Shown one piece after another: positions 6,103-40,448 of a DNA stretch of 41,458 bases (positions within the stretch are counted from its first letter, which is position 1; the number at the start of each line of letters is the position of its first letter). Below the pieces are notes generated by a model. That model did not search any database, was not told the origin of the DNA, and saw nothing but the letters and a program-made list of their open reading frames with translations. The stretch comes from a virus. The stretch is from positions 1-41,458 of IMG/VR virus record IMGVR_UViG_3300045257_000156. One strand, written 5' to 3'. The translations under genes were made by a program, and so were the position numbers.

Positions 6103-6303
6103 ATGGCCTATGACGACTGGAAAACTCGCGCACCGGAGGATGACGAGGCCCGCTGGCAACCGACGCGCGGGGTCGAGCGGACGTGTTGCGAGTGTGGGCG
6201 ATCCGTGTGGATCCACAAGACTGAGCCGTATCTGATCCATGTCGCGTGTGAGGCGTGCGTGCGGAAACAGCAACCAGAAAGACGAACCGATGCCCCAGTC
6301 TGA
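6103..6303 (+). CDS. Small zinc-ribbon protein (66 aa)
   Basis: Two Cys pairs, TCCECGRSVW and VACEACVRK, form a classic ribbon. It overlaps the start of the recombinase gene by 14 bases. Arg/Lys-rich C-terminus. Its position next to the ERF gene hints at a DNA-related role, but nothing proves it. Confidence 0.6.
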   Translation: MAYDDWKTRAPEDDEARWQPTRGVERTCCECGRSVWIHKTEPYLIHVACEACVRKQQPERRTDAPV

Positions 6304-7132
6304 CGTGATTACGGAGTATGCGGCGGCGTTGGCGAAGGCGCAGGCGGAATTTCTCGTGCCGAAGAAATCGCGCACGGCCAAAGCGGGCACGTTTTCGTAC
6401 AGGTACAGCACCTTGGACGAACTGATCGAGGCCACCCGGCCGGCCCTCGCGAAGCACGGGCTGAGCGTGCAGCAGGATGTGTTTTGCGGGCGGGTGGACG
6501 CCCAGAGCGAGATTGAGGTGTGCGTGACGACGCAGATCACGCATAGCTCTGGGCAATGGTGGCGCTCGACGCCGTTTGCGCTGCCGGCCGGAACGACGCC
6601 GCAGAACGCGGGCGCGGCCTGTACGTACGCCCGTCGGTACTCGCTCGGGGCGGCCCTGAACGTCGCGGCCGAAGAGGACACTGACGCGCAGACGGTCCAG
6701 CCCGCCAAGAGCAACGGGAAAGACCTCCACACGGCCCCTGCGGCAGTCCCGCCGAAGGACCCGGCCAGATCCGACCGGGGCGCCTCAGCTCGGGGAGAAC
6801 CTGGGGCGCCTTCCACGCCTGCGGTTGAGGCGATGTCGCCCAGCGGCACGCATGTGGTGAAAGTCGAGTCGGAGAAGCCGGATGGCAAGAATTACACGCG
6901 CTACGTCGTGACCTTTCGCGACGGCCGCGTGGCGAGCACGATTGCTACGCCGCTGGGTCGGAAGGCGGAAGCCGCGCGAGACGCGGGGACGCTCGTCACG
7001 CCCGTGATCAAGCCGGGAAAGTTTGGGAAGTTTGACCTAGACCGGCTGGATCCGCCGACGCGCAAGCCCCCGGTCATAGACCCGGAGGACCAAGGGCCAC
7101 CGCCGTGGATGGAAGAAGAGGGGCAACGCTGA
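6290..7132 (+). CDS. erf: ERF-family single-strand annealing recombinase (280 aa)
   Basis: ERF proteins anneal complementary single-stranded DNA in phage recombination and genome circularisation. Residues 1-130 carry the family features: FSYRYSTLDELIEATRPAL (about 35-53), HGLSVQQ, QWWRSTPF and CTYARRYSLGAALNV (111-125). The C-terminal half has a Pro/Ala-rich linker and a separate small basic domain (about 195-265). ATG at 6290 was chosen over earlier in-frame starts because the conserved domain begins there. The HNH gene follows with an overlapping stop and start. Confidence 0.85.
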   Translation: MPQSDVITEYAAALAKAQAEFLVPKKSRTAKAGTFSYRYSTLDELIEATRPALAKHGLSVQQDVFCGRVDAQSEIEVCVTTQITHSSGQWWRSTPFALPAGTTPQNAGAACTYARRYSLGAALNVAAEEDTDAQTVQPAKSNGKDLHTAPAAVPPKDPARSDRGASARGEPGAPSTPAVEAMSPSGTHVVKVESEKPDGKNYTRYVVTFRDGRVASTIATPLGRKAEAARDAGTLVTPVIKPGKFGKFDLDRLDPPTRKPPVIDPEDQGPPPWMEEEGQR

Positions 7133-8882: not shown

Positions 8883-9662
8883 ATGGCCTGGGTACGTTTA
8901 GACGATCAAGCCCCACGAAATGAGAAAATTTTACGAGCGGGACCTGCGGCGTCTTGGCTCTGGGTGTGTGGGATTGCCCACGCGCAAAGCCAATTGACCG
9001 ACGGATTTATTTCAGAAGTGGCCCTCCCCCTGATTGGAGTCAAGGGCCACGCATTGGCAAAACGGCTCGCGGAGGACCTCGTGGCCGCCGGCCTATTTGA
9101 CCGTGCTGACAGTGGTTACCTGGTTCATGACTATCTCGACTACAACCCGTCGAGGGCAGTGGTGTTTGCGAAACGCGCGGAGGATGCCGCGCGGAAGCGG
9201 TTCACGGACTCCACGCGGACTCCGGCCGGAATCCAACCGGACTCCGGCGGTCCCCGCGCGCGCGTCCCATCCCATCCGATCCGTACCGTACCAAAGAACA
9301 CAGAAGGGCCGACAGAACCGGCCCGGCCAGTGGTGTCTGCAAACGGCAATGGGAAAAAAGCCCCCGTTGAGCCGATTGCAGCGAAGCAGTTTTTGCAGTG
9401 GTTTCAGGAGGAATACCGGCGCAGCCGGTTCGGTGCGGATTATCTCGTGAAGTGGGACAAGGACGTGCCGCTCGTCAAACGCATGCTGGCGGCGACGACG
9501 CTCGAACGGCTGAAGAAATACGCCGAAATCCTACTGAATCCGGCGACCGATGATGAGTGGATTGCCACGACGGACCGGGGCATTGGCGTCTTGTCCTCCC
9601 GGTTCAACTGGCTCTCGGAGCGGTATGCCGAGTGGGAAGCGACGCACGGGCGTGAGTCATGA
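8883..9662 (+). CDS. Replication-initiator / replisome-organiser-like protein (259 aa)
   Basis: N-terminal winged-helix-like domain (MAWVRLDDQAPRNEKIL through DYLDYNPS, about 1-82) resembles phage replisome organisers. It is followed by a Pro/Arg-rich linker and a C-terminal helical domain (FLQWFQEEYRRSR onward). This two-domain plan is typical of phage proteins that melt the origin or recruit host helicase. It is the only replication-initiation candidate here. Identification is by layout, not by a diagnostic motif. Confidence 0.55.
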   Translation: MAWVRLDDQAPRNEKILRAGPAASWLWVCGIAHAQSQLTDGFISEVALPLIGVKGHALAKRLAEDLVAAGLFDRADSGYLVHDYLDYNPSRAVVFAKRAEDAARKRFTDSTRTPAGIQPDSGGPRARVPSHPIRTVPKNTEGPTEPARPVVSANGNGKKAPVEPIAAKQFLQWFQEEYRRSRFGADYLVKWDKDVPLVKRMLAATTLERLKKYAEILLNPATDDEWIATTDRGIGVLSSRFNWLSERYAEWEATHGRES

Positions 9663-12177: not shown

Positions 12178-12259
12178 GGAGAGTTGGCTGAATGGTAAAG
12201 CAGCGGCCCGCTAAGCCGTCGCGTCTTGACGCGTGCCGGTTCGATTCCGGCACTCTCTC
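12178..12259 (+). tRNA. tRNA-Ser (anticodon GCT)
   Basis: Folds by eye: acceptor GGAGAGT / ACTCTCT (first pair G-U), D arm GCT...AGC with GG in the loop, anticodon stem GCGGC / GCCGT around loop CCGCTAA, a long variable arm CGCGTC-TT-GACGCG, and T arm GCCGG-TTCGATT-CCGGC. The long variable arm and GCT anticodon mark it as serine, reading AGC and AGT. No CCA is encoded. The base before the anticodon is C, where nearly all tRNAs have U33. Confidence 0.85.
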
Positions 12260-12323
12260 CGCTTGTACTGCCCATGAAGCCCCTCGCCACGGTTACCCCG
12301 TTCTCCCACTGGAGATTCCCGCG

Positions 12324-14395: not shown

Positions 14396-15123
14396 AGCGG
14401 CTGCGGATGGCGGTCGTCGGGCTGAGTCTGCTGCTCGGAGCCGTGGGAGTCGCGGCGCAGCAGCCAGACTTACAGTCGATGCTCAATACGTTCCTCGTGA
14501 ATTTGTACGCGGGGAAGGTGGGGATTACGACCGGGGGCACCAGCGGCGTCGCGCTGACGACGGCCAAGGTAGCGTTCGGCAGTGCGGGCGTGCTGGGCTG
14601 GACGGCGACAAACGAGGCAGCGGCGCTGGATAGCGGGATCAGCCGCACGGCTCCTGCCACCTTAGCCGTGGGGAATGGGACGCAGGGAGATACAACCGGG
14701 AATCTGACCCTCAATGGCATCACACAATTAGCGGGATCCACCACCAACCTCGGGGCGCGGATTCTCTTGAATAGTCCCGCGGTGGGGCAATACGACATTC
14801 AAAACAACAGCGTCTCGATGGGGGCGATGATTAATGTCTCGGCCCTGCCCACCATCGCCTCAGGCTTTGGCACCGGTCCCGCTGTTACAGCAGGCTCGAC
14901 GCCGTTTGCCGGATCGCTCAACGTCGGCACGGTGACCCCCGGAACCGGTGGCGTCGTGAACTTCAACGGCACGGCTTTCCCATCGGCGCCCTTCTGCATG
15001 TGCCAGGACGATACGACGCTGCTCGCGATTCGGTGTACGACCACGACGACGCAGCTCACCGTGATCGCGACCGCCTTGACCGCGAGCGATATCGTGACGT
15101 GGATGTGTGTCAGCTCGAAATAG
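14392..15123 (+). CDS. Secreted or exported phage protein with signal peptide (243 aa)
   Basis: The GTG start at 14392 overlaps the upstream stop and gives a textbook signal peptide (KRLRMAVVGLSLLLGAVGVAA, cleaved near residue 22). The mature part is Gly/Thr/Ser/Ala-rich with short repeating strands (GNLTLNGITQL, GGVVNFNGTAF), like fibre or beta-helix proteins. Four cysteines lie near the C-terminus (CMCQDD, IRC, WMC). A signal peptide on a phage protein next to packaging genes is unusual; it could be a periplasmic or surface factor rather than a virion part. Confidence 0.65.
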   Translation: MKRLRMAVVGLSLLLGAVGVAAQQPDLQSMLNTFLVNLYAGKVGITTGGTSGVALTTAKVAFGSAGVLGWTATNEAAALDSGISRTAPATLAVGNGTQGDTTGNLTLNGITQLAGSTTNLGARILLNSPAVGQYDIQNNSVSMGAMINVSALPTIASGFGTGPAVTAGSTPFAGSLNVGTVTPGTGGVVNFNGTAFPSAPFCMCQDDTTLLAIRCTTTTTQLTVIATALTASDIVTWMCVSSK

Positions 15124-15137
15124 ATGTAGGAGTCTGT

Positions 15138-15434
15138 ATGCCCTTTCCCCTGCGTCCACCAGCCGGGTTACCCTCTGGAGCAGGCACCGGCAATCGCTCG
15201 TCGCTCATCCGCGAAGCCATCCTGAGCAAGTTGAAAGCGGCCAGTGGTGCCCCGACCCCAGGGAATGCGATGGGGCCGCAGATGCTGCCTCCCGGTGGGC
15301 CCCCACTGGGCACGCCCCCGATCCCGAGTCTGGCCCCATCGGTGGGCCATTCCGCGCAGCCGGGCTTGTCGCGGAGTCTCCCGCCGGGGCTCCCGCCCCC
15401 AGGGTTGCGGAAACCGCTGTTTGGCCGCCGATGA
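15138..15434 (+). CDS. Pro/Gly-rich small protein (98 aa)
   Basis: ATG follows AGGAG. Very rich in proline, glycine and leucine (GPQMLPPGGPPLGTPPIPS), probably disordered. A short helix (SLIREAILSKLKAAS) is the only ordered part. Four-base overlap with the terminase gene. Function unknown. Confidence 0.55.
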   Translation: MPFPLRPPAGLPSGAGTGNRSSLIREAILSKLKAASGAPTPGNAMGPQMLPPGGPPLGTPPIPSLAPSVGHSAQPGLSRSLPPGLPPPGLRKPLFGRR

Positions 15435-16438
15435 TCGATCTCGACCTCGCGCCGATCGGCACCCCGCACGCGACGAGCACGTGCTGCTGGTGTGGCGCCG
15501 CGCTGGTGGTGGGGCAAGTCCTGAACTTGCGCTGCTGGCTCTGTCCGATCGACTGGCGCCGACAGGCCAACGTCGCGGTGACCTCGCAGTTTAAAGGGAA
15601 AGCCCCGCAGTGCTTCCACGTCCCGCTGCCGAGTCAGACCGCCATCGAGGAATCGACCGCCCGCAATCTGCTCTGGGGCGGGCATGCCGGTCCAGGGAAG
15701 TCAGTCGGGATTCGGCACTGGCTGTACCGGCGGTCGATGCGCGTGCCAGGCCACGAAGCCTTGCTCCTGCGCGAAAACTGGGACCAACTCGATAAGACAC
15801 ACCTCCGGCAGATGGAACGCGAAGTCCCGTTGCTCGGTGGGAAGTTCTGGAAATCGGATCGCAAGGTGTCGTTTGGCGCGGGGTCGGACGAATCCATCAT
15901 CGACTGCGGCCACATGGCGGAAGCCGACGCGATGTCCCGGTACATGGGCACCGACTACGGCGCGATCGTGCCGGATGAAGCGAGCCTATATCCGCTGAAC
16001 GATGATGGCGTGCCGATGCTGGCGGAACTCTCGACGCGGGCGCGGAAAGCCTACAAGGATCGCCAGGGCCTCCGCGTGGAGCCCCGGTTTATCCCGGTGA
16101 CCAATCCAGGCGGTCCCTCGGCATTCTGGCTGCTCGACATGTTCATCGACCATCGACCAGACTGTGAGAAGTTCCCCGCGCTGCAGCCGGTGTTCAACGC
16201 GGCCGGCGAACAGACCAAGGGCTATCGGCCCGAACAGTGGGCCTTCATTCCGGCCAAACTGCAAGACAATCCGTACATGCGTGACGACTACCGGGATACC
16301 GATCTGGCGGTCTTGAGTGGCACGCGCTATCGGCAACTCGCCGATGGCGATTGGCGAGTCTTCGCGGGACAATTCTTCAGCGAGTGGCAGGAAACCAAGG
16401 ACGGTCAACCGTGGCACGTGCGGGAGCTGGCCGCATGA
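15431..16438 (+). CDS. terL-N: Large terminase, ATPase subunit (335 aa)
   Basis: This is the motor domain that drives DNA packaging. Walker A is GGHAGPGKS (83-91), Walker B is AIVPDE (178-183), and a C-motif-like VTNPGG follows. An N-terminal zinc ribbon (C18, C21, C35, C38) is an unusual addition. The protein ends where the nuclease domain would normally continue in the same chain; that domain is encoded by the next gene, overlapping by ATGA. Confidence 0.85.
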   Translation: MIDLDLAPIGTPHATSTCCWCGAALVVGQVLNLRCWLCPIDWRRQANVAVTSQFKGKAPQCFHVPLPSQTAIEESTARNLLWGGHAGPGKSVGIRHWLYRRSMRVPGHEALLLRENWDQLDKTHLRQMEREVPLLGGKFWKSDRKVSFGAGSDESIIDCGHMAEADAMSRYMGTDYGAIVPDEASLYPLNDDGVPMLAELSTRARKAYKDRQGLRVEPRFIPVTNPGGPSAFWLLDMFIDHRPDCEKFPALQPVFNAAGEQTKGYRPEQWAFIPAKLQDNPYMRDDYRDTDLAVLSGTRYRQLADGDWRVFAGQFFSEWQETKDGQPWHVRELAA

Positions 16439-20619: not shown

Positions 20620-20702
20620 ACGACTTGTTGCGACCACGCTAGCCCAGGCCTGGGCGAACACCGATCTCCCTGATCGGCGCGTGGCGACACAGGGGCGCAG
20701 TT

Positions 20703-20744
20703 AAGGGGTGTGCGATGGCTCTACCGAGCCGCGCCACCCCTTTT
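20703..20744 (+). terminator. Rho-independent terminator
   Basis: AAGGGGTG (20703-20710) pairs with CACCCCTT (20735-20742), an inner GGCTC / GAGCC stem has a TACC loop, and TTTT follows. It ends the transcript of the portal-side small genes and isolates the capsid block. Two other palindromes lie just upstream: GCCCAGGCCTGGGC at 20642-20655 and CCGATC / GATCGG at 20661-20677. Confidence 0.85.
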
Positions 20745-20827
20745 CTGTTGCCCTCACGAGCTTGGAAACGCCTACGCGCCATATGCGGGGCAACGGGTAG
20801 CCCGACCACACAGGGCAGCAGGTAGTT

Positions 20828-21841
20828 ATGCCAGAAGCGACCCTCACGCCGAGTGCCGGAAGTAGCAGCGAGAGCGCACCCGCCAGTACTGCGGCTAGTG
20901 GCTCGCCGTCTGCGACCCCGACGCCCAGCGAGCGCCCGACCTTCGCGCAAGCGTTTGCGTCGGACGCCGCCAGTCCAACCACCTCCACGACTCAACCGGA
21001 AGGGGCGACCACACAGCCCGTCGCGGAGAGTGCGCCCACTGGTGAGACACCAAACCCCAGCACTGAAGGGCCGATTCCCTTCGCCGTCCACAAGCAATCC
21101 CTGGACAACGCCCGCGCCAAAGAGCGCCAAGCCGTCGAAACCCACTACCAGGGCTTGACGACCCAGCTCCAGGCGTGGACGCCGATCGCCCAACGCATGG
21201 TCGAGGATCCGATCGGGTTCATGCGCGACTACACCGCGGAACTCGCGCAACGGGACCCGACCCTCGCCACGCAAGTGCGATCGGAAGCTGCCCGCACCCT
21301 GGGGGCGCGACAACCTCAGGGACCTCCACCGCCCGATGTGCAGATCGTGAACGAACGCGGGGAAGTCACCGGCAGCACCTATTCCGAAAAGGGGCTGCAG
21401 GCGTATGCCGCGTGGCGCGATCAGCAGTTGCTCGCGAAGATGCAGCAGGAGTTCGCGCCATTCAAACACGAGCGGGACCAGCGCATCCAGAACGAGCAGC
21501 AACGGCAACTTACGGCGCAAGTCGAGAGCGCGGCGGATAGCGTCATGGCCGAAGTGAGCGAGATCCTGGATATCGGGGACCTCGGGAAACTGACGCCAGA
21601 CGAACAGGGCCTTTTGTCCGAAGTGGCGGCGCAGATGGAAACCGGCCTGTCGGCGCATAAGGCGGCGCTGGCCGTCCGGAAGGCGAAGATTGCCCCGCAG
21701 GCGCAGCAGAAAGCGCAGGCGGCGGTGCTGGATTCATTGAACAAAAAAGCGGCGGCCAACGGGGTGAACCCGAGCGGGGCCGCCGTGTCCTCCACCAAAC
21801 GGCCGACGTCGTTCAACGACCCGAGCCTGAAGTGGAATTAG
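20828..21841 (+). CDS. Capsid scaffolding protein (337 aa)
   Basis: Sits directly before the major capsid gene. The N-terminal 90 residues are Ser/Thr/Pro-rich and disordered. The rest is helical and highly charged (KERQAVETHYQGLTTQLQAW, KMQQEFAPFKHERDQRIQNE), with a basic C-terminal tail, as in scaffolds that guide prohead assembly and leave. Called by layout; no diagnostic motif. Confidence 0.75.
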   Translation: MPEATLTPSAGSSSESAPASTAASGSPSATPTPSERPTFAQAFASDAASPTTSTTQPEGATTQPVAESAPTGETPNPSTEGPIPFAVHKQSLDNARAKERQAVETHYQGLTTQLQAWTPIAQRMVEDPIGFMRDYTAELAQRDPTLATQVRSEAARTLGARQPQGPPPPDVQIVNERGEVTGSTYSEKGLQAYAAWRDQQLLAKMQQEFAPFKHERDQRIQNEQQRQLTAQVESAADSVMAEVSEILDIGDLGKLTPDEQGLLSEVAAQMETGLSAHKAALAVRKAKIAPQAQQKAQAAVLDSLNKKAAANGVNPSGAAVSSTKRPTSFNDPSLKWN

Positions 21842-21852
21842 GAGCGCGGTAA

Positions 21853-22821
21853 GTGGCCAACCCGAACGTCGGGCAAAGGGTCACAGCCAACTGGGAAGTC
21901 GTCGTCGGCAAAGGGCCGATGGACAACATCCATGACGACTACTGGTTCTTCAACCAGATGTCGCAAGGCGATGGCTTCCTCAGTCTCAATGGCGGTGACT
22001 TCATCGCGATTCCCTTGGAATACGCGATCAATACGACCGTGTCGTCCTACAGCGACACGGACACGATCAGCACGACCCGCGTGGACGTGTTTGATCGCGC
22101 AGAAGCGCAGTGGAAGGAATACGCGGGGACGGCGATCATGTCCGACCTCGAAGCCGATCGTAACGATGGCGACGGCACCGTGTTTCCCTTGCTGCCGGCG
22201 AAGCTCGAAAACGTGCGCAACTCGATGAAGCGGATCATCAATCAGGATTCCTTCTCGGATGGCTCGGGCAACTCGAGCAAGGTCATCGGCGGGATGCAGT
22301 ATCTCGTCGCGACGGCGCCGACCTCCGGCACGGTGCTGGCGATCAACCGGGCCAACTTCGCGTTCTGGCGCTCGCAGCAAACGAGTGGCGCGAAAACCAC
22401 GACCGCCTTCGACAACCTGCGGGCGACGATGCGATCCATCTACAACCTGTGCTCTAACGGCATGGGCGATCAGCATCCGACCACCGCGACGACTGACCGT
22501 GCGACCTTTGAAGGCTTTGAAGGCTTGCTCCTCGCGAACGAGCGCTTCACCTCGAAGGCGGAAGCGGATGGCGGGTTCAAGAACGAAGTCCTGAAGTTCA
22601 AGGGCGCAAAACTCAGCTACGACTACGCGTGTCCCGCTGGGAACCTCTACTTCTGGAATCCCAAGTTCCTGAAGCTGGCCTACAAGAAGGGCAGCTGGTT
22701 CAAGATGGAAGACCCCATCCGGCCAGCCAACCAAACGCTGACGGTCTATCCTGTCCGGACAATGTGCAATCTGATTACAACCAACGCCAGACGGCTCGGC
22801 GTAGTCAGCGGTGTTACGTGA
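21853..22821 (+). CDS. Major capsid protein (322 aa)
   Basis: GTG start after GGAG. Features such as NWEVVVGKGPMDNIHDDYW near the N-terminus, NGGDFIAIPLEYAINTTV, and NLYFWNPKFLKLAYKKG with a closing ITTNARRLGVV fit an HK97-fold shell protein of podovirus-like phages. Position after scaffold and length agree. The minus-strand HNH gene overlaps its 3' end by 8 bases. Confidence 0.8.
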   Translation: MANPNVGQRVTANWEVVVGKGPMDNIHDDYWFFNQMSQGDGFLSLNGGDFIAIPLEYAINTTVSSYSDTDTISTTRVDVFDRAEAQWKEYAGTAIMSDLEADRNDGDGTVFPLLPAKLENVRNSMKRIINQDSFSDGSGNSSKVIGGMQYLVATAPTSGTVLAINRANFAFWRSQQTSGAKTTTAFDNLRATMRSIYNLCSNGMGDQHPTTATTDRATFEGFEGLLLANERFTSKAEADGGFKNEVLKFKGAKLSYDYACPAGNLYFWNPKFLKLAYKKGSWFKMEDPIRPANQTLTVYPVRTMCNLITTNARRLGVVSGVT

Positions 22822-33776: not shown

Positions 33777-33961
33777 TGCCGGAGCTGATTCTCGGGATTA
33801 TCGACGGCATCATCAAGCTCGCGATCGTGGTGCTCGCGGGCATTCCCCCGGAGATTCGCGCGCAACGGGAAGCGGAGTTCCAGGCGGATCTCGACTGGTG
33901 GCGCAAGGTGCTGAATCTGTACGTGCCAAATTTGCCGGCGCCGCCGCCGAAAGTCCCATGA
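33776..33961 (+). CDS. Holin-like small membrane protein (61 aa)
   Basis: One hydrophobic N-terminal segment (LILGIIDGIIKLAIVVLAGI) followed by a charged helix and Pro-rich tail. Sits directly before the SleB-like hydrolase and overlaps it, which is where holins are often found. One of several holin candidates in this genome. Confidence 0.5.
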   Translation: MPELILGIIDGIIKLAIVVLAGIPPEIRAQREAEFQADLDWWRKVLNLYVPNLPAPPPKVP

Positions 33962-34380
33962 CCGATCTAGAAGCCCTGTCCCTCGTGATCTACGGCGAGT
34001 CCCGTGGAGAAGTCATCGAAGGCAAGCTCGGGGTAGCCGCGGCGATCCGCAACCGCGTGCTGGAAGAATACCGCGGGGCCAAGAGTTACCTGGAAGTCTG
34101 TACCGCCCACGCCCAATTCTCTGCCTGGACTGAGGAAGCGGCGTCGATGGCCGACGCGAAAGCGCGCATGGAAAGCTCCTCGCGGCACATCGACGATCCG
34201 ACGCTGGATCTCTGTCAACAGATTGCCGCCGCGACGATCGCGGGGACGCTGCCCGATTGCACCAAAGGGGCGACCCACTACATTACGACGGAGCTGTACC
34301 ACCGGGCGCCTCCGTCGTGGGCGCGGAATGCGACACCGCTCTGCACCCTTGGCAACCAGACCTTTTTCCATGTTTCCTAA
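33958..34380 (+). CDS. SleB-like cell wall hydrolase (endolysin candidate, 140 aa)
   Basis: Hydrolase_2/SleB type lytic enzyme acting on peptidoglycan. Motifs: LVIYGESRGEVIEGKLGVAA with catalytic-type Glu14, AIRNRVLEEY, CTAHAQFSAW (48-57) and KGATHYITTEL. About the size of the isolated catalytic domain. No signal peptide, so it needs a holin to reach the wall. Confidence 0.85.
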   Translation: MTDLEALSLVIYGESRGEVIEGKLGVAAAIRNRVLEEYRGAKSYLEVCTAHAQFSAWTEEAASMADAKARMESSSRHIDDPTLDLCQQIAAATIAGTLPDCTKGATHYITTELYHRAPPSWARNATPLCTLGNQTFFHVS

Positions 34381-38839: not shown

Positions 38840-38940
38840 TGATCGCGGACCCGTCAGCACTCGAGCAGGGAATCTTCTTCCTCGTGGTGGCGGTGGTGGC
38901 GCTCCTGCTCCTCGGCTACCACCTGCCGCCGAAGCCATGA
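38839..38940 (+). CDS. Very small membrane protein (33 aa)
   Basis: A single hydrophobic segment (GIFFLVVAVVALLLLGYHL). TAATG and ATGA junctions at its two ends support translation. With the previous two-span protein it may form a holin-antiholin pair; inference only. Confidence 0.55.
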   Translation: MIADPSALEQGIFFLVVAVVALLLLGYHLPPKP

Positions 38941-39158
38941 CGTTATGGTGCTCCAGTTGCGGCGCCGAAACCACGCCCAGCGGCGCGGTGCTGACCGGCT
39001 GTCCGTCGTGTCGCGGGCTGGTCTTTTCGACGGCGCCGCCAGCACCCACGCGCGCGGTCTACGAACGAAACCGCGCTGTCTCCAAAGCCCCTGACTGGCT
39101 GACGGTGCATGATCGACGGTTCCTGCACTCGATCTGCATCAGCAGCGAGGATGTGTGA
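38937..39158 (+). CDS. Zinc-ribbon protein with SICISSEDV C-terminus (73 aa)
   Basis: CSSCGAETT and CPSCRGLVF form a ribbon. The C-terminal part, PPAPTRAVYERN...WLTVHDRRFLHSICISSEDV, is repeated almost intact at 39347-39478. It is the last gene before a hairpin terminator. The DRRFLxSICIS pattern is a common C-terminus of small phage proteins; function unknown. Confidence 0.65.
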   Translation: MTLWCSSCGAETTPSGAVLTGCPSCRGLVFSTAPPAPTRAVYERNRAVSKAPDWLTVHDRRFLHSICISSEDV

Positions 39159-39201
39159 CGCGAGGGGTAGACTGACGCGGCAAAGGAGGCGTACAAAACG
39201 C

Positions 39202-39223
39202 GGGAGGCCCGCCAAGGCCTCCC
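39202..39223 (+). terminator. Hairpin terminator candidate
   Basis: GGGAGGCC (39202-39209) pairs with GGCCTCCC (39216-39223) around a 6-base loop, and ACGC / GCGT can extend the stem. No T-run follows, so it may stop transcription only partly or from either direction. Confidence 0.55.
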
Positions 39224-39278
39224 ATTGCGTTCGATTGCGGTCGTAAACCAACCCTATCCTAACCCGGAATCCAACAGG

Positions 39279-39404
39279 ATGATTGCGCTGATTTTCGTGC
39301 CCATCTTCGCCGTGGGTGCCGCGATTGCCGTGTTTGGCTATGTCATGTGGCGAGGACTACGGCCCCGCCCGCGCCGACACGCGAGGTGTACGAGCGACGG
39401 GTGA
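39279..39404 (+). CDS. Small membrane protein (41 aa)
   Basis: Begins MIALIFVPIFAVGAAIAVFG, one span, then an Arg-rich tail (RGLRPRPRRHARC). AACAGG lies before the ATG. The tail overlaps the duplicated zinc-ribbon fragment in another frame. Low to moderate support. Confidence 0.45.
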   Translation: MIALIFVPIFAVGAAIAVFGYVMWRGLRPRPRRHARCTSDG

Positions 39405-39478
39405 AACCGCTGCCGTGGTTGACGCGACATGATGTGCGGTTCCTGGCCTCGATCTGCATCAGCAGCGAGGATGTGTGA
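39347..39478 (+). pseudogene. Duplicated C-terminal half of the zinc-ribbon gene at 38937
   Basis: The frame encodes TTAPPAPTREVYERR...WLTRHDVRFLASICISSEDV, matching the C-terminal half of the protein at 38937 and sharing an identical last nine residues. The zinc-ribbon half is missing. A GTG at 39347 could start a 43-residue protein, so it may still be expressed. It marks a local tandem duplication followed by loss. Confidence 0.7.
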
Positions 39479-39523
39479 GGCCGTGGAATTTTCAGAAGTC
39501 GTGGAATTTCAGGTTTTCGGATC

Positions 39524-39626
39524 GCGGTGATCCTGATCCGGCGTGAACCTCGCCGGACGACTTGTACTGAGTCGGGCCGATCGCGTGCGCGGGGTTGCGG
39601 GCGCGATCCGGCTTCAGGATCACCGC
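39524..39626. repeat. Module A: 13-bp closing stem with three inner hairpins
   Basis: GCGGTGATCCTGA (39524-39536) pairs perfectly with TCAGGATCACCGC (39614-39626). Inside are TCCGGCG / CGCCGGA (39537-39557, 7-base loop), CGACT / AGTCG (39558-39574, 7-base loop) and GATCGCG / CGCGATC (39579-39608). This is a cloverleaf-like four-helix plan, but it lacks tRNA features such as the T-loop sequence. Confidence 0.75.
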
Positions 39627-39670
39627 CCTTGAAGATGCGGAGCAGTTGTGATAGAAGCAGAGGGGAAAAT

Positions 39671-39845
39671 CCGAGCGAGACGGGGATCTCGCTCGGGTGG
39701 ATCAACGTCGTGGAACTGCACGACGGTCAGGCATCCGAAGATCCCTGACCCGCCTACAGTAGCCCACCTCGACGGTTCACCGCAAGTCATCCTCCACGCT
39801 GCGGCTTCTGGAGTGTAGAAGTGCGCTTGGGGCTTCGTAGGCGGG
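39671..39845. repeat. Module B: hairpins followed by a 9-bp long-range stem
   Basis: CCGAGCGAGA / TCTCGCTCGG (39671-39696, loop CGGGGA), CGTCGTG / CACGACG (39706-39725) and GTCAGG / CCTGAC (39726-39749) are followed by CCCGCCTAC (39749-39757), which pairs with GTAGGCGGG (39837-39845). Inside the long stem are AGCCC / GGGCT (39761-39834) and CTTCT / AGAAG (39805-39821, 7-base loop). Confidence 0.65.
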
Positions 39846-39914
39846 CCTCGCACGTTGAAACCGCCGACACGTACTGCGGGCTGGACTCCGAAAACGTACG
39901 GGGAAGTGCGCTGT

Positions 39915-40040
39915 CCCGGACATCTCGACCCTGAGCACAGGGTCCCTTCGCGCCCCGTCCCGTCATCGTCGTGCAGATGACGTGTGCTGGTTTCCGCTGG
40001 ACGCTCCCGAAAGAGCCGATGACGGAAAAAGATGTCCGGG
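39915..40040. repeat. Module C: 11-bp closing stem with three inner hairpins
   Basis: CCCGGACATCT (39915-39925) pairs with AGATGTCCGGG (40030-40040). Inside are GACCCTG / CAGGGTC (39927-39944, loop AGCA), CGTCATC / GATGACG (39961-39982) and TTTCCG / CGGAAA (39991-40028) with an inner GCTC / GAGC. The plan repeats that of module A: one closing stem and three hairpins. Confidence 0.7.
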
Positions 40041-40048
40041 TGTCGGTA

Positions 40049-40087
40049 CTGGCTTTTTGTACAGTTAGCGGTTACACTCAGGGCACT
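40049..40087 (+). promoter_or_regulatory. Candidate promoter / operator before the first early gene
   Basis: TACACT at 40073-40078 could be a -10 element (the -35 region is poor), and AGCGGTTAC at 40067-40075 is repeated before the next gene at 40240-40248. Transcription from here would start almost at the ATG at 40088. The motif pair suggests a shared regulator. Confidence 0.35.
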
Positions 40088-40231
40088 ATGTCCATGAAGA
40101 ACCCGGCGGCGGTCGCCTTGGGCCGCCTTGGCGGCTCGGTGTCCTCGCCCAAGAAATACCGCGCCACATTGAAAAGCCTCAAAAAGGCCCGGAAAGTTCA
40201 AGCCGAGAAGCGTCGAAAAGCGGCTGCTTGA
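40088..40231 (+). CDS. Small basic protein, ALGRLGG type (47 aa)
   Basis: Sequence SMKNPAAVALGRLGGSVSSP followed by a Lys/Arg-rich helix is typical of a short nucleic-acid-binding-like family common in bacteria and phages. No ribosome binding site is visible, so the mRNA may be nearly leaderless. A second ATG two codons later (40094) is also possible. It is the first gene after the structured block. Confidence 0.6.
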   Translation: MSMKNPAAVALGRLGGSVSSPKKYRATLKSLKKARKVQAEKRRKAAA

Positions 40232-40260
40232 CTTGTGCAAGCGGTTACTGTAAGCTCGTC
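40228..40260 (+). promoter_or_regulatory. Candidate promoter before the gene at 40263
   Basis: TTGACT (40228-40233) and TAAGCT (40251-40256) are 17 bases apart, a good spacing with a strong -35 and a weak -10. AGCGGTTAC at 40240-40248 lies in the spacer and matches the site at 40067. The start of transcription would lie near the ATG at 40263. Confidence 0.4.
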
Positions 40261-40262
40261 TC

Positions 40263-40448
40263 ATGTCAAACACGTCTCGCACGAGTCACCCGTTGCCGAT
40301 TCGCTTCACCGTCTGCGCGTGGCACACGTCCCAAGCCGATCTCGATGCCCTCAACCGGCAGTTTCCCGGCCAGGTGAGCCATTCGGCGTGTCCCGCCTGT
40401 GTCGCCAAGATCAATGCGGACCTCGATGCGGCGGGGTGCCCTCGATGA
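40263..40448 (+). CDS. Zinc-ribbon-type protein (61 aa)
   Basis: VCAWHTSQADL and CPACVAKI place Cys/His residues in ribbon-like order. The middle is helical (DLDALNRQFPGQVSHSAC). No clear ribosome binding site; see the promoter entry. ATGA overlap with the next gene. Confidence 0.6.
   Translation: MSNTSRTSHPLPIRFTVCAWHTSQADLDALNRQFPGQVSHSACPACVAKINADLDAAGCPR

Follow-up and report, generated by a model that had tools for sequence, protein, structure and literature searches.

Very few large phage RNAs are known (PMC12286853). Among them, GOLLD and ROOL (Rumen-Originating, Ornate, Large) occur in phages and prophages, often near tRNA islands; they form RNA-only cages and their function is unknown (PMC12286853). 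A solved ROOL example measures 659 nt; GOLLD RNAs are in many cases longer than 800 nt and carry a conserved 3' region (PMC12286853). The locus compared with them here lies in IMGVR_UViG_3300045257_000156, an uncultured tailed phage whose record of 41,458 bases was analysed in full and constitutes the window of this study. The same 127 bases stand at both ends of the record, which therefore appears, as far as its letters allow this to be judged, to cover the whole of a circular or circularly permuted genome 41,331 bases in length. A first-pass annotation had proposed a tandem array of three multi-branched stem systems (modules A, B and C) covering about 520 bases near its right end. Modules A and B of this system are borne out and module C is weak, and the proposed structured element is now extended to positions 39471-40073 (~600 nt, two domains, drawn as RNA of the + strand). 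The predicted structure is real and unusual, and it most likely belongs to a structured RNA.

Predicted architecture and fold strength

The complete element (39471-40073) folds with a minimum free energy (MFE) of -280.4 kcal/mol, corresponding to z = -5.2 on the + strand and -5.9 on the - strand (20 shuffles each), and the stretch 39510-40065 gives z = -4.6 and -4.3, respectively. The fold z of the block, -4.8, is the best among the 520-nt windows tested genome-wide, and perfect inverted repeats of 13, 11, 10 and 9 bp are found within it. The sequences of its stems differ from one another, which makes repeated protein-binding sites unlikely and a single-stranded fold the better reading; selection appears to act on the pairing and not on a repeated binding motif.

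Module A (39524-39626, + strand, 103 nt) is predicted to form a four-way junction in which, as first annotated, a 13-bp stem (39524-39536/39614-39626) closes around three hairpins. Hairpin 1 (39537-39557) contains 7 bp and the loop TGAACCT (pairing probability, p, 0.97), hairpin 2 (39558-39574) contains 6 bp and the loop GTACT (p 0.99), and hairpin 3 (39575-39613) is built of 5+7+4 bp with the loop GGTT (p 0.88-1.00). In the predicted fold, zero unpaired bases separate the helices at the junction, and the helix pairing probabilities are mostly 0.97-1.00, with two at 0.88-0.89. The MFE of -71.0 kcal/mol compares with -43.9 +/- 3.0 for shuffled sequences (z = -9.0; 0/200 shuffles equal), and the use of ssDNA parameters returns the same structure as RNA parameters, at z = -9.9. 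In a composition-corrected energy scan covering 18 genomes or contigs of phages together with a single MAG contig, module A ranks as the second most extreme among 21,115 windows of 105 nt, the most extreme being a simple terminator-like hairpin in the relative G006. For a kissing interaction of the hairpin 1 loop with GGTTCAC at 39775, the loop complementarity is no higher than in shuffles. Three copies of the motif GyCGTGGAAyT flank module A (39480-39511, 39707-39720), and a longer version of this pattern does not clearly exceed chance. A purine-rich linker (39627-39668, + strand), mostly unpaired and of low or intermediate pairing probability, leads to module B.

Module B (39669-39843, + strand) folds at z = -4.0 against shuffles, and the 9-bp stem and three hairpins assigned to it initially are recovered. 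Hairpin 1 (39669-39698) comprises 12 bp (p 0.98), hairpin 2 (39707-39724) comprises 6 bp (p 0.80) and includes the third GTCGTGGAAyT copy, a direct repeat, and hairpin 3 (39725-39750) comprises 7+3 bp with the loop CGAA (p 0.96-0.97). The long stem (39751-39843) begins with a closing helix of 7 bp (p 0.99) that is followed by internal helices; the underlying inverted repeat (39749-39757/39837-39845) measures 9 bp and is reduced to 7 bp after the adjoining hairpin forms. Modules A and B are predicted to be enclosed by an outer helix between ATGTGTGAGGCC (39471-39482, + strand), which coincides in part with the TGA stop codon of a degenerate gene copy, and GGCCTCGCACGT (39844-39855, + strand). 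This helix has 12 bp including two G-U pairs (p 0.96), and by our own estimate a helix of this length with G-U pairs across such a span is insignificant by itself.

Domain 2 (39859-40073, + strand) consists of module C and outer helices, the outermost at 39859-39864/40068-40073 (p 0.87) and the inner one at 39865-39870/40040-40045 (p 0.58). The 11-bp closing stem of module C (39915-40040; stem 39915-39925/40030-40040) and one firm hairpin of 7 bp (39927-39944) were correctly described at first, while for the second and third hairpins the prediction is ambiguous: the CCGTCATC arm can pair either with a nearby partner (39962-39967/39976-39981, p 0.58) or with a distant one (39960-39968/40017-40025). 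Taken with the inner outer helix (39865-40045), the fold of module C is ordinary and barely beyond shuffles (z = -2.0; 5/200 shuffles equally good). A covariance model of module A misses module C at E <= 10, so that the two are not repeats, and 'tandem array' applies to them only as a likeness in predicted architecture; their sequence is not detectably shared.

The expectation that the folding energy would exceed that of shuffled sequence therefore holds for modules A and B and for the whole block, by far in each case. Energy alone is no proof of a functional RNA, because the stretch across the start of the capsid gene (21700-22080) reaches z = -7.2, among the strongest values in the genome, and has no conserved structure in a 13-sequence alignment. 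Since extreme fold energy can thus lack conservation, confidence in the RNA reading is held down. Structure-rich windows in relatives are mostly coding sequence, simple long hairpins or terminators, and not multi-branched modules. A long terminator-like double hairpin (GGGGCGCAG..AAGGGGTG..CACCCCTTTTCTG..GCCC) is also present at 20640-20770, ~1.2 kb before the capsid gene; because similar long hairpins precede this gene by ~1 kb in four relatives (G006, G015, G019 and G427), it may represent a conserved late-operon element.

Genomic setting and strand

The landmarks of the genome include genes for an Erf-like annealing protein (6239-7132), a replication initiator (8883-9662), the terminase (together at ~13.3-16.4 kb, with the large subunit at 15107-16438), the major head (capsid) protein (21853-22821) and an endolysin-like protein (33898-34380). 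The sole tRNA of the genome, a tRNA-Ser (12178-12260), is located ~13.5 kb from the block around the circle. Clustering of GATC within the block was rejected as a signal, as GATC is abundant genome-wide. The longest perfect inverted repeat of the genome (14 bp, 11476-11489/11531-11544) is found just 3' of a tail-fibre-like gene, within a smaller ORF. At 1995-2289, a 12-bp repeat (GCGCCGCCTGGA) is present in 24.6 copies within a 347-aa ORF, which probably encodes a low-complexity or collagen-like protein.

The block itself occupies ~680 nt without an assigned gene (39405-40087); its codon scores are zero or lower in most frames, and neither strand bears a coding signature. Several further stretches, 600-753 nt long, are likewise left uncovered by a crude codon-based gene model, which makes the block one of the largest gene-poor blocks and not clearly the largest, as had been claimed. 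On its upstream side, a 66-nt direct repeat (39096-39161 and 39416-39481, 85% identical) places a second, apparently degenerate copy of a small-gene tail (..SICISSEDV) directly before the structured block. A GUGYG group II start motif at 39472 was discounted because the duplicated gene tail carries it in its other copy as well. Downstream, the next gene (40088-40231, + strand) encodes a 47-aa basic protein (MSMKNPAAVALGRLGGS...), has a positive coding score and reads away from the block. The sequence AGCGGTTAC occurs at 40067-40075 and 40240-40248, each time shortly upstream of a small gene start and as part of a longer stretch of similarity (TTGTrCA..AGCGGTTAC), which could be a promoter or operator of the phage; when one mismatch is allowed, the 9-mer is not enriched genome-wide.

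Of the 61 genes predicted by the codon-based model, 60 lie on the + strand. The MFE structures contain 19 G-U pairs on the + strand and 8 on the - strand, and the 12-bp outer helix of modules A and B is intact on the + strand only, being split into shorter pieces on the other. Together, gene direction, G-U counts and the intact outer helix lend weak support to an RNA of the + strand. Against a firm choice of strand stand the similar z values of both strands and the strongest terminator-like hairpin nearby, which lies on the - strand (39224-39201).

Searches for relatives and known families

About 70 phage relatives were found through capsid and terminase, the capsid protein searches yielding 17 and then 75 viral loci in overlapping sets and the terminase search yielding 8. 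The nearest relative (L002/G001) shares 84% capsid identity and has structural genes in common with the phage, and no protein-level match to the right arm from ~31.7 kb onwards was obtained in five relatives compared. For the block, blastn gave no match in phage and plasmid DNA; its translated frames had no credible relative in viral and genome contigs, an exact 18-mer had no credible result in viral contigs, and no credible copy of its DNA was present in the records of the capsid and terminase relatives. Covariance models gave no credible match either, that of module A in the relatives and 298 genomes of the MAG's class and that of module B in the relatives, and the search for relatives of the neighbouring proteins found none. 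Two candidate hits were set aside: the best DNA match, of 20 bases to hairpin 1 of module A in G437, belongs to a record without a covariance-model match, and a module B match in G016 (E 0.0024) overlaps ORFs and has many broken pairs, which points to chance. Pattern-based scans detect close relatives only, the records include many fragments and some searches omit very near records, and absence here is for these reasons not absence in nature.

The only capsid relative found in the bacterial genome collection (L063, JALOOJ010000098.1; 57% identity) is located in a MAG of the Anaerolineae, on a contig of 18 kb, and offers the only hint at a host obtained for the phage group. A DNA search of this MAG and of 400 genomes of its phylum did not find the block.

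Among known RNA families, a cmscan of the whole record against 4227 families of Rfam 15 returned only the tRNA at gathering score, and the region 38900-40300 had no hit even at E <= 5. This agrees with the first-pass annotation, which claimed no match to a known family, and since Rfam provides no match, the element is not filed as GOLLD, ROOL, pRNA or intron.

Competing explanations and comparison with known phage RNAs

Modules A and B fold far beyond chance and the stretch is not coding-like. The account tentatively put forward is that of a large structured non-coding RNA, probably of the + strand, which would be of the general kind of GOLLD and ROOL and a member of neither family. It is favoured by the z values of module A, module B and the whole element, by the non-coding signature, by the differing stems and by the predominance of genes on the + strand; it is weakened because no homologue among the ~70 relatives provides covariation, and further because the z values of both strands are about equal, no sigma-70-like promoter was found, a terminator-like hairpin lies on the - strand and module C is weak. 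The initial interpretation as a large ornate non-coding RNA is supported in part, by fold energy and non-coding signature, and no known family matches it. We infer transcription of the block, from the + strand as RNA, into a single 600-nt molecule with some function; RNA in preference to DNA, the strand and any packaging role are likewise inferred. In the proposed mechanism, the block would be the gene for a structured RNA of ~600 nt, read on the + strand together with its neighbouring genes. The transcript would fold into two domains, the first combining a rigid four-way junction (module A) with a row of hairpins (module B), and, in keeping with proposals for other large phage RNAs, it would most likely serve the infection as a stable scaffold that acts in trans.

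It is unlikely that the block holds no selected structure and represents non-coding debris of recombination that folds well by accident, in a genome arm that is rich in GC and changes fast, perhaps with module A as the sole real element. The position of the block after the degenerate gene-tail copy, the right arm unmatched in the five relatives, the near-chance fold of module C and the extreme yet unconserved energy of the capsid-gene control would all fit such debris, but a z of -9.0 combined with linker-free four-way geometry is improbable by chance, and module A adjoins another strong module. Distinctly unlikely is a cis-acting RNA, that is, a structured leader (5' UTR) or an intergenic processing or attenuation region that would control expression of the small genes from 40088 or protect mRNA ends. 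The block does lie directly upstream of this run of small genes in the same direction, with the outer helix of domain 2 reaching 40073, 15 bases before the ATG; however, 600 nt and a four-way junction are large for a leader, a search for terminator-like hairpins followed by a T-run gave none on the + strand of the block, and no known cis-regulatory family was matched.

Even less should be expected of a DNA-level element whose stems form in single-stranded DNA at a replication, packaging or recombination site. The ssDNA fold of module A, the nearly equal folding of both strands and the identical 127-base ends, such as a circular or permuted genome would show, are compatible with it. Against it, the curve of cumulative GC skew does not turn at the block, the terminase genes and the replication initiator (8.9 kb) are distant, no tandem array or iteron was found within the block, and 13-bp arms around a 77-nt loop are not readily extruded from duplex DNA. 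Finally, a protein-coding block is barely credible: a 220-aa ORF on the - strand (39620-40282) is open through most of it, but antisense long ORFs are common throughout this GC-rich genome (ORF list), its GC3 is 0.58 vs 0.67-0.86 in confident genes, its coding score is negative, it has no Pfam match and peptide-pattern scans found no relative in viral or genome contigs. No protein-like reading was found to run through the block, which favours the first-pass interpretation.

To return to the large non-coding RNA, the element is at present a single-sequence candidate, and the lack of a homologue among the ~70 relatives limits its weight. If true, it would offer a compact model system, with a 103-nt module A that can be made and probed directly, and another such RNA of independent architecture would suggest that phages evolve large scaffold RNAs repeatedly. 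That it founds a new class of large, ornate RNAs in phages, without sequence relationship to GOLLD or ROOL, centred on a linker-free four-way junction and located in the variable arm of a little-known phage lineage, is doubtful.

Packaging RNAs of the phi29 type, suggested by the first-pass annotation, are likewise structured phage RNAs, but they measure ~174 nt and work together with the packaging ATPase, whereas the present element is ~600 nt long, is far from the terminase genes and has no Rfam match. With ORF-less group I and II introns it shares the multi-domain plan, a length of a few hundred nt and occurrence in phages, and it differs from them in its intergenic position, with no split gene seen and, for the conserved intron core (domain V, P3-P8), no Rfam intron match at E <= 5. 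GOLLD and ROOL are further marked by abundant transcripts and ordered homo-multimers. Proximity to a tRNA, frequent but not obligatory for GOLLD and ROOL, is absent here, as is an Rfam match to either family. Phage or prophage origin and a large, ornate form, here as a predicted fold only, are shared with GOLLD, of which many examples are longer (>800 nt), and with ROOL the element has in common its phage or prophage origin, a multi-branched structure, again as predicted, and a similar length.
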